From: Massilia arenae
Lineage (GTDB): Bacteria > Pseudomonadota > Gammaproteobacteria > Burkholderiales > Burkholderiaceae_D
Direction: 5' to 3'
NCBI RefSeq assembly: GCF_008014745.1
Contig: NZ_VPFD01000027.1
Coordinates: 1 to 64,000 of the forward strand
DNA: 64,000 bases
Under the pieces are notes generated by a model. That model was not told the origin of the DNA, ran no database searches, and worked only from the letters and a program-made list of their open reading frames with translations. Both the position numbers and the translations under genes were made by a program. Of this stretch, positions 58,078-60,811 are shown piece by piece (the first letter of the stretch is position 1; each line of letters opens with the position of its first letter).

Positions 58078-59478
58078 TCAGTAACGGTACGCCGATTCGC
58101 CGTGGCTGGTGATGTCCAGGCCTTCGCGCTCTTCGTCTTCAGGTACGCGCAGGCCGATCACGATGTCGACCAGCTTGAAGGCGATGAAGGCGACGATGCC
58201 CGACCAGACAACGGTCACGACCACGCCGTGCGCCTGCACCAGCACCTGGCTGCCGATCGAGTAGCCGGTGGCCATGGCATTGGTGGTGTAGTCCCACACG
58301 CCCTGGCCGCCCAGCGACGGCGCCGCGAACACGCCGGTCAGCAGCGCACCCAGGATACCGCCCACGCCGTGCACGCCGAACACGTCGAGCGAATCGTCGG
58401 CGCGCAGCATGCGCTTCAGGCCGGTCACGCCCCACAGGCAGATGATACCAGCCAGCAGGCCCATGACCAAGGCACCCATCGGACCGACGAAACCGGCGCC
58501 CGGGGTGATCGCCACCAAGCCCGAGATGGCGCCCGAGGCGGCGCCCAGCATCGATGGCTTGCGCTTGAACAGCCATTCGCCGGCCGCCCACGAGACGGTG
58601 GCGGCGGCGGTCGCCAGCAGGGTGTTGATGAAGGCCAGCGCCGCGACGTCGCCCGCTTCGAGCGCCGAACCGGCGTTGAAGCCGAACCAGCCGACCCACA
58701 GCAGCGAGGCACCGACCATGGTCATCGGCAGCGAGTGCGGGGCCATCGATTCCTTGCCGTAGCCGACACGCTTGCCGATCACGTAGGCGCCAACCAGGCC
58801 GGCAACCGCGGAGTTGATGTGGACCACGGTGCCGCCCGCGAAGTCGAGCGCGCCCTGCTGCCACAGGTAGCCGGCGCCGGCGCTGACGGTGGCCAGCGAA
58901 GCGGCGTCGGTGATCGCATCAGGACCGGCCCAGAACCAGACCATGTGCGCCATCGGCAGGTAGGCGAAGGTGAACCAGATCACGACGAAGGCCAGCACCG
59001 CCGCGAAGCGTGCGCGCTCGGCGAACGAGCCGACGATCAGCGCGCAGGTGATGGCGGCGAAGGTACCCTGGAAGGCGACGAAGATGAACTCGGGGATCAT
59101 CACCTCTTTAGTGAAGGTGGCGCCCATCGAGAAGGTGCCTGCGACCGGGTCCCAGATGCCTTGCAGGAAGGCGCGGTCGAAGCCGCCGATGAAGGCATTA
59201 CCCGAGGTGAAAGCCAGCGAGTAGCCGTACAGGCACCACAGCACGATGATCAGCGAAAACACCATCATGACCTGCATCAGCACCGACAGCATGTTCTTGG
59301 CGCGCACCATACCGCCGTAGAACAGCGCCAGGCCCGGGATCACCATCATGATGACCAGCAGGGTGGCAACGAACATCCAGGCGGTATCCCCTTTGTTGAT
59401 GGACGGCGCCGCCATGGCCGGGAGGGCCAGGCCCAGGCCCAGCATGGCGGTCAGGATTTTTGTCGTTATATGCTTCAT
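58078..59478 (-). CDS. amtB: Ammonium transporter
   Basis: An eleven-helix Amt/Rh channel of 466 residues after a signal-like N-terminus (ILTAMLGLGLALPAMA). Family sections include WMFVATLLVIMMVIPGLALFYGGMV (read in pieces), FAGGTVVHINSAVAGLVGAYV and FGVHGVGGILGALLTGVF with pore histidines. AAGGAAAG precedes the ATG. It is 14 bases downstream of glnK, the PII protein that blocks it when nitrogen is ample. Confidence 0.96.
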   Translation of the reverse strand: MKHITTKILTAMLGLGLALPAMAAPSINKGDTAWMFVATLLVIMMVIPGLALFYGGMVRAKNMLSVLMQVMMVFSLIIVLWCLYGYSLAFTSGNAFIGGFDRAFLQGIWDPVAGTFSMGATFTKEVMIPEFIFVAFQGTFAAITCALIVGSFAERARFAAVLAFVVIWFTFAYLPMAHMVWFWAGPDAITDAASLATVSAGAGYLWQQGALDFAGGTVVHINSAVAGLVGAYVIGKRVGYGKESMAPHSLPMTMVGASLLWVGWFGFNAGSALEAGDVAALAFINTLLATAAATVSWAAGEWLFKRKPSMLGAASGAISGLVAITPGAGFVGPMGALVMGLLAGIICLWGVTGLKRMLRADDSLDVFGVHGVGGILGALLTGVFAAPSLGGQGVWDYTTNAMATGYSIGSQVLVQAHGVVVTVVWSGIVAFIAFKLVDIVIGLRVPEDEEREGLDITSHGESAYRY

Positions 59479-59492
59479 GAACACTTTCCTTC

Positions 59493-59831
59493 TTACAGTG
59501 CGTCGTTGCCGGTCTCGCCGGTACGGATACGGATGACCTGGGTCAGGTCGGCCACGAAGATCTTGCCGTCACCGATCTTGCCGGTGCGGGCGGCGCCCTG
59601 GATCGCATCGATCACCTGGTCGACGATGGCATCGTCGACGGCGGCTTCGATCTTGATCTTGGGCAGGAAATCGACAACGTACTCGGCGCCACGGTACAGC
59701 TCGGTGTGACCCTTCTGGCGACCGAAACCCTTCACTTCGGTCACCGTCATGCCTTGCACGTTGATTTCCGACAGCGCTTCACGCACTTCGTCGAGCTTGA
59801 AGGGCTTGATGATGGCGGTAATCATTTTCAT
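59493..59831 (-). CDS. glnK: PII nitrogen regulator GlnK
   Basis: A 112-residue trimeric PII protein. Uridylylation residue Tyr51 sits in the T-loop ([17 protein letters not shown]), and GFGRQKG plus [14 protein letters not shown] are also diagnostic. AGAGG is the ribosome site. It is called glnK rather than glnB from its place directly before amtB. Only 19 bases separate it from the porin stop. Confidence 0.96.
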
Positions 59832-59850
59832 GGTATTGCCTCTTTTGCTA

Positions 59851-60585
59851 TCAAAAAGTTTTTGACACGGACAGCACGGCGGCTGACTTGCCCAGGTTCT
59901 TGCCTTCCGGACTCAGGTAGGCGTCGGTATTCGCCTTGTGCCAGGCCAGGGCCACGGTGGCGACCCCAAAGTCCTTCGTCACGCCGATCTTGTAGTGCGT
60001 GTAGGACGCCGGGCTGTTGTTCTTCACGCGCTGGCGGCCGACTTGCAGGTTCAGCAAGAAGCCGTTGCTGACGTCGATATCGGCGCCCAAGTCCAGGTAA
60101 CCGCTGCGCTTGCTGTCGGCGGTGCCGAACAGATTGGTCGTCGAGTGCGAATACTTGATATACGCAGGGCCAAAGCCGAGCTTGCCGTAAAGTTCAAAAG
60201 TATTTGCATTCGGATCCAGGCTGTTATCCGGATACCAGTAATACAGGCCGCCAACGTCGTAGCTGATCTCGTCGGTCAACTGGCCACGCTTGCCGGCATA
60301 CACATCCCATTCAATATTGCCGTCGCCACCCAGATCCTTCGTCCACTTGATGGTGGAGAGCCAGGTGCCTACGTAAAAGCCGGTTGGGCTGTGTACGTAG
60401 TCGACGCCGCCGGACAGGGCGGGGTCGGAATCGGTTTGCGACAGGCCGCGGTAACGGTAGTCGCTGGTGAGTGCCACGTTGTAACTCACCTGGTGTTCGG
60501 CGGGTTGTTCCTGTGCCATGGCCGGGATGCTGGTGAAAGCCAGAATCGCCAGGCTAATTGCGTTGATTTTTGCATTGCACTTCAT
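59851..60585 (-). CDS. TorF-family putative outer-membrane porin
   Basis: A 244-residue outer-membrane protein. A signal peptide ([17 protein letters not shown]) is followed by alternating beta-strands ([52 protein letters not shown]) and a C-terminal Phe (LSVSKTF), the mark of barrel insertion. The AAGGGGG ribosome site decides the start. First gene of porin-glnK-amtB, behind the sigma-54 promoter at 60653-60668, so it is likely a nitrogen-starvation porin. The solute is inferred, not known. Confidence 0.88.
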
Positions 60586-60652
60586 GACAAACCCCCTTGG
60601 ACAGTTACTGCGTTTGGAATCCTTTTTTCGTGCGTTATCTCCCCCTTCATTT

Positions 60653-60668
60653 AGCAGGATGTGTGCCA
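60653..60668 (-). promoter_or_regulatory. Sigma-54 promoter of porin-glnK-amtB
   Basis: On the minus strand TGGCAC-ACATC-CTGCT fits the RpoN consensus with one mismatch (C for the first T of the -12 box) and keeps GG-N10-GC. It lies 68 bases upstream of the porin ATG. Confidence 0.8.
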
Positions 60669-60794
60669 GCTCATAAAAGCGATGAAAATGGCCTTGTTTT
60701 TTTGGTAAACGTGCCCCAGATACGACTTGCTTCAATACAATCGACCGCGAACGGCGTCCGCCGTGTAGCGCGACGCACCAAATCAGGCTGTATT

Positions 60795-60811
60795 GCACCT
60801 ACTTGGTGCAT
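60795..60811. promoter_or_regulatory. NtrC-type enhancer palindrome
   Basis: TGCACC-TACTT-GGTGCA is a perfect 17-base dyad identical to the NtrC consensus (TGCACC-N5-GGTGCA). It is about 140 bases upstream of the sigma-54 promoter, a normal enhancer distance, and 29 bases before the ubiK ATG on the other strand. Confidence 0.85.

Follow-up and report, generated by a model that had tools for sequence, protein, structure and literature searches.

A predicted TorF-family porin gene ahead of glnK-amtB in Massilia arenae, and the recurrence of its family beside ammonium and potassium uptake genes

Why should an operon for an ammonium transporter begin with the gene of a barrel protein of outer-membrane type? 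The question is raised by a 64,000-nucleotide stretch of Massilia arenae (contig NZ_VPFD01000027.1, positions 1 to 64,000; hereafter the window), in which a TorF-family gene heads a row with glnK and amtB. A sequence-only reading of this DNA had proposed a porin under NtrC and sigma-54 control and, with it, a two-membrane uptake route for ammonium or small nitrogen compounds. We suggest that the protein is an outer-membrane channel, induced through NtrC and leaning towards cations, that feeds AmtB, and that a sister device does so for Kdp and K+; we hold the chances of this reading to be evenly balanced. Ammonium as substrate, outer-membrane location, channel activity, cation preference and a single transcript are the parts of it that we infer. 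The locus consists of the following features.

59851-60585, minus strand: gene of a 244-aa TorF-family protein, a predicted barrel (NlmA-type porin; TIGR02001, PF09694)
59493-59831, minus strand: glnK, P-II protein (PF00543 and NF007946 above cut-off)
58078-59478, minus strand: amtB, ammonium transporter (PF00909 and TIGR00836 above cut-off)
60653-60668, minus strand: candidate sigma-54 (-24/-12) promoter TGGCACACATCCTGCT, TGGCAC-N5-YTGCW, a pattern with 2 matches in the window (0.15 expected)
60794-60810, no strand assigned: candidate NtrC-binding palindrome TGCACCTACTTGGTGCA, the sole exact match to TGCACC-N5-GGTGCA in the 64 kb window (0.00 expected)
60882-61229, plus strand: ubiK-like (BMFP) gene, divergent and outside the operon, a syntenic marker (PF04380 above cut-off, NF047835 under it)

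The locus has the layout of an nlmA-glnK-amtB operon: the membrane-protein gene comes first, glnK and amtB follow on the same strand with gaps of 19 bp (porin to glnK) and 14 bp (glnK to amtB), and the NtrC site and the sigma-54 promoter lie upstream, 141.5 bp apart from centre to centre. The gene row and the promoter proposed by the sequence-only reading were thus recovered, and its remaining coordinates are right; its palindrome is indeed perfect, and lies one base lower than the 60795-60811 given. The TorF-like identity holds as well. The protein exceeds the curated cut-offs over its full length, with 207.4 bits against TIGR02001 (cut-off 47.15, spanning positions 1-244) and 157.5 bits against PF09694 (cut-off 24). 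Its N terminus, judged by eye, is signal-peptide-like, and it is 96% identical to its counterpart in Massilia timonae. The family shares its name with Shewanella TorF, which belongs to the respiration of a small nitrogen compound, trimethylamine N-oxide, and is not known to be linked to NtrC or amtB.

We collected the Burkholderiaceae TorF loci (130 of the best 150 places) by a search with the window protein. The TorF gene stands before glnK in 85 of them (amtB seen in 84) and has same-strand kdp genes in 38, while 7 have other surroundings; because the query is itself an amtB-linked protein, this 85:38:7 split should not be read as an unbiased rate. The conservation of porin-glnK-amtB is borne out by these 85 loci and by all 80 loci of named Oxalobacteraceae, where every locus has glnK as the next gene and a divergent ubiK, and 74 show amtB. 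Of the six loci without visible amtB, five lie at short contig ends and one (L252) does not. Among the nearest 29 relatives (L004-L032) the divergent ubiK-like gene, the porin and glnK are found in 29 of 29 and amtB in 28; the sequence of the remaining one (L025) ends before amtB.

The regulatory sites are conserved together with the genes. The pair of NtrC and sigma-54 sites is present upstream of 77 of the 84 amtB-linked loci (0.47 expected from dinucleotide shuffles) and of 80 of the 80 named Oxalobacteraceae loci, and hence the pair is not due to chance. A sigma-54 site with up to 2 mismatches precedes 82 of the 84 (9.3 expected from shuffles). The scan took 84 of the 85 glnK-linked loci, since L104 is too near a contig end. 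At the kdp-linked loci the pair occurs in 0 of 38 (0.44 expected from shuffles). The motifs, together with the work on Herbaspirillum described below, argue firmly for NtrC/sigma-54 regulation of the operon. The other exact sigma-54-like match in the window (32792-32807, plus strand) is inside a same-strand open reading frame (ORF) of 317 aa (32697-33650) and may therefore be a chance one.

Neither the operon type nor its regulation is new: nlmA-glnK-amtB of Herbaspirillum has already been described. According to the passages of PMC3023670 used here, the H. seropedicae nlmA(orf1)-glnK-amtB operon is NtrC-dependent, an amtB::lacZ fusion is 21 times higher under nitrogen limitation, and NlmA owes its name to its presence in membrane extracts of nitrogen-limited cells. 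The gene order is identical to that of the window, and, judged by gene position, NlmA would be a TorF protein; TorF-glnK-amtB occurs in a record under the name Herbaspirillum sp. SJZ107 (L211). The words ‘porin’ and ‘outer membrane’ are absent from the main text of PMC3023670. The window operon is thus an additional case of a known operon type, and what is new is the pattern of pairing with amtB and kdp. Among the matches listed in the open PMC literature, a link of TorF with amtB or with kdp is undescribed, and the passages drawn from PMC12542777, PMC5491218, PMC10274813, PMC10052978, PMC5648810, PMC7214821 and PMC13393422 do not deal with the window porin.

The pairing with kdp is seen within the same genome. 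Its only other TorF gene (G000:C6:8685-9419, minus strand; L033), 59% identical to the window porin, precedes kdpA, kdpB and kdpC, all above NCBIfam cut-offs, together with an OmpR-type response regulator and a KdpD that narrowly misses its cut-off (1101 vs 1123 bits). Within the 38 kdp-linked loci, kdpA starts at most 1.5 kb downstream in 13 and farther away in 4; at both inspected loci of these four (L059, L075) an opposite-strand ORF intervenes, so that loci of this type lie beside the kdp operon and not in it. In 8 loci kdpB comes before and kdpD after TorF, in 12 kdpD comes before it, and at L131 TorF follows kdpB. The 7 other loci include one at a contig end with ubiK upstream (L039), one converging on kdpDE (L049) and two adjoining methyl-accepting chemotaxis receptors (L040, L080; MCPsignal above cut-off). 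Viewed from kdpA (85 genomes), TorF lies within 12 kb in 43 (41 on the same strand) and BBP2, a second porin family, in 3 (1 on the same strand), where the 49 TorF rows compared were picked as those without amtB linkage. Given that TorF genes are found with the Kdp potassium pump as well, we favour ‘small cation’ over the ‘small-nitrogen’ part of the substrate that the sequence-only reading had proposed.

A survey of the phylum used the TorF family model as query, and the sample is hence without bias towards amtB. TorF is present in 76 of 150 genomes, and its neighbours were counted in the 75 genomes besides that of the window (108 TorF places). amtB is found within 5 kb of 37 of the 108, with all 54 pairs on the same strand and a variable gene order, and kdpA within 12 kb of 7, where all 8 pairs are likewise same-strand. 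As a control we took the Porin_4 family in the same 75 genomes, leaving out the 6 of its 63 rows that overlap TorF; a single genome (G226) accounts for many of the other 57. None of these 57 lies near amtB, and none near kdpA (Fisher p 1.7e-8 for the amtB comparison). A constant tie of TorF to amtB or kdp is rejected at the phylum level, as 64 of the 108 places have neither; one of these (L186) is cut by a contig end inside a glnK match. In the 55 of these 64 that were fetched, about 30 neighbour proteins were scanned. They include a KefC-like antiporter (L152), a chemoreceptor (L146, MCPsignal above cut-off) and many proteins without an evident tie. At L150, L155 and L185 TorF adjoins PotD/PotF-like polyamine-binding proteins, well under the model cut-offs, which may be a further cation-related pairing or a set for sensing polyamines. 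A SiaA-like phosphatase is also next door at L150.

Such neighbours agree with a different reading, in which the protein is a broad small-solute channel for scavenging many nitrogen compounds and its place before glnK-amtB merely brings NtrC control. The NtrC motifs and the Herbaspirillum findings suit this reading too, as do the PotD/PotF-like proteins (L150, L155, L185), the chemoreceptors (L040, L080, L146) and the unrelated genes that TorF adjoins elsewhere. A table of the B. cenocepacia NtrC regulon, in the part of PMC5491218 consulted, has several porins, not identified as TorF. However, a channel of this kind predicts no link with potassium, yet 38 of the 130 Burkholderiaceae TorF loci lie in or beside kdp and none of these carries the NtrC/sigma-54 pair. 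We regard the broad small-solute channel as rather unlikely.

What kind of protein is encoded? The AlphaFold2 model of the window porin, made with 58 relatives, is a 12-stranded barrel (predicted local distance difference test, pLDDT, 81.7; predicted template modelling score 0.77), with residues 1-26 and 47-52 at low confidence (pLDDT <50). Its best solved matches are all outer-membrane channels: KdgM (Z 17.0), VhGalP (16.8), NanC (16.5) and also Tsx. The fold is common to the monomeric 12-stranded porins KdgM, NanC and VhGalP (Z 16.5-17.0 over 163-192 residues; against the KdgM/NanC fold, Z up to 17.0 and root-mean-square deviation 2.2 over 163 aligned residues), whereas identity is only 8-14%, no KdgM model appears among the Pfam/NCBIfam matches at E<=0.001 and no PDB sequence matches at E<=1. 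Thus, the model makes it likely that the window porin is a barrel of outer-membrane type. KdgM and VhGalP carry oligogalacturonate according to their PDB titles, and we take the substrate of NanC to be sialic acid; the predicted TorF interior is acidic instead. An anion channel like KdgM/NanC is not favoured because of this interior, the orientation of whose residues is deduced from sequence. Mean interior net charge is -7.4 in 84 amtB-linked and -7.0 in 37 kdp-linked TorF proteins, by which a charge difference between the two groups is rejected, and E92, D94, D110 and E131 are conserved 100% in both.

TorF is not the only barrel found at this place. In the genome G025 (L279/L324) a porin of the BBP2 family (PF07642) sits between the sigma-54 site and glnK, in place of TorF, and it is the one amtB-associated case among 30 Burkholderiaceae BBP2 loci fetched. 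Across the phylum, 13 of the 19 BBP2 places above cut-off have glnK and/or amtB in their 1.5 kb flanks, 10 in the order BBP2-glnK-amtB, 2 divergent and 1 after amtB.

L324 (G025), L294-L296, L300-L307, L309 and L319: BBP2 porins adjoining glnK and/or amtB

A sigma-54 site with up to 2 mismatches precedes 10 of the 10 in-order cases, a count made without a shuffle control, and the full NtrC/sigma-54 pair precedes 3 of them. In one family (f22), 19 genomes have TorF near amtB and 8 have BBP2 there, with no overlap. The BBP2 porins at glnK-amtB (L324, L294 and others) resemble TorF as barrel porins in the same operon slot, and comparison of the two profiles gives no relationship (probability 6%). 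The Kuenenia BBP2 porin KSMBR1_3177 is likened to them by family and by its response, not by gene neighbourhood; in the consulted portion of PMC7438415 it is strongly induced by ammonium limitation, and the authors suggest ammonium influx. That two unrelated barrels occur beside one transporter points to a need of the operon for some outer-membrane channel and not for TorF specifically. Their recurrence at glnK-amtB speaks for a step at the outer membrane in the supply of AmtB. Substitution of BBP2 for TorF is undescribed in the open PMC literature, among the matches listed.

A barrel at the surface might still play a structural, adhesive or sensing role and be no nutrient channel. Fold matches of similar size do include enzymes and autotransporter domains, the porin is missing at some glnK-amtB loci, and NlmA has been placed elsewhere than in the outer membrane, as discussed below. 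Against such a role stand the nearest folds, which are the diffusion channels KdgM, VhGalP, NanC and Tsx, the repeated pairing with two uptake systems and the unrelated porin in the same slot, and we find it improbable.

How have the pairings with amtB and kdp changed? On a tree of 129 of the 130 Burkholderiaceae proteins (one removed by a length filter) 8 changes of the amtB label are required, and well-supported branches force at least 4 of them. On a wider tree, built from 20 new rows and 27 picked from the 130 (47 in all), at least 6 changes of this label are forced. There, 10 of 13 proteins of one family (f30) form a single clade (100/100) with 6 amtB-linked and 4 kdp-linked members; the remaining 3, all amtB-linked, are placed elsewhere, and the placement of the long branches L355, L358 and L359 is unsure. 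Single genomes have both amtB-linked and kdp-linked TorF (G189, G221 and G233 of family f30; G226 of family f2). The forced changes on both trees therefore mean that the two pairings were exchanged for one another independently in distant groups. That the gene order is a frozen ancestral one, with porin and AmtB functionally untied, as the strongly kept ubiK-porin-glnK-amtB order of one family would allow, is very doubtful: lineages differ in which gene leads, porin or amtB, while all 54 pairs share a strand, the amtB and kdp contexts switch in separate groups, and the unrelated BBP2 occurs in the slot.

Several observations weigh against the proposed cation channel for AmtB and Kdp. The first is that AmtB can be found without it. 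A listed TorF lies within 2 kb upstream of 97 of the 138 best AmtB genes, and inspection of 20 of the other 41 revealed 11 with TorF, 1 with BBP2 and 8 glnK-amtB loci with neither. Two of these 8 (L276, L277) are second copies, a TorF-linked one being present in the same genome, and in 5 of the 8 a sigma-54 site (up to 2 mismatches) is about 50 bp or less from the glnK ORF, which matches porin loss. In genus g7 (genomes of 1.9-2.6 Mb), 5 of 7 genomes have an AmtB match and no TorF match, and the 64 phylum TorF genes mentioned above have neither amtB nor kdp nearby and mixed neighbours. NH4+ and K+ pass general porins already. The nearest solved folds are known for acidic sugars. The interior charge of the window protein is only -4, and the acidic interior is family-wide (mean -6.6 over 59 phylum-wide TorF proteins), with interior positions set by hydrophobic strand alternation, from sequence and not from coordinates; as a family trait it therefore suits cations and singles out neither amtB and ammonium nor kdp. 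The NtrC-activated operon of Caulobacter is described, in the excerpt available, as glnK and a transporter gene only, and its genome does contain a TorF match. Finally, the H. seropedicae authors hold NlmA to be most probably periplasmic (PMC3023670, in part), whereas the window protein is predicted as an outer-membrane-type barrel. The two-membrane route of the sequence-only reading thus retains the conserved NtrC/sigma-54 unit, the predicted barrel and the two barrel families as its support, while its dedication to ammonium is unproven.

With these reservations we propose how the NtrC-induced cation channel would work. Under nitrogen limitation phosphorylated NtrC would bind at 60794-60810 and activate sigma-54 polymerase at 60653-60668, and all three proteins, porin, GlnK and AmtB, would then be made from one mRNA. 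With its 12 strands and its mainly acidic interior, the porin would form a barrel in the outer membrane and raise the permeability of that membrane for small cations, chiefly NH4+. The high-affinity AmtB would thereby be freed from the diffusion limit across the outer membrane, while GlnK would gate it from inside. For K+, an ion of nearly equal size, the kdp-linked TorF paralogue would play this part. Limitation-induced porins feeding a high-affinity inner-membrane transporter are known in PhoE/OprP and LamB; unlike the window porin, these are larger trimeric barrels, unrelated to it and selective for anions or sugars. More tentatively, we propose that TorF and, convergently, BBP2 may be dedicated outer-membrane channels for cations of the size of K+ and NH4+, so that AmtB and Kdp uptake would be a two-membrane process in many Gram-negatives, its outer half being repeatedly recruited and swapped between the ions.

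Downstream of amtB lies a glutamate-cysteine ligase gene of the TIGR02049 type (582 bits; window 56519-57820, minus strand). Two exact inverted copies of TCCCCGCGCAGGCGGGGACCC (window 57942-57962 and 58016-58036) are located between amtB and this gshA, and a third copy with 2 mismatches is at 18483-18503. This dispersed palindromic repeat perhaps serves as the operon end; a simple scan of 57700-61300 for minus-strand terminator-like sites found none.

Last, we consider what the proposal means. It is commonly supposed that general porins let small ions through the outer membrane without hindrance. Should co-regulated barrels serve AmtB and Kdp, the permeability of the outer membrane would be a regulated step in the scavenging of both ammonium and potassium. 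The large uncharacterised TorF porin family would then gain a testable class of substrates, and the first gene of nlmA-glnK-amtB, known already but without an explanation, would be accounted for.

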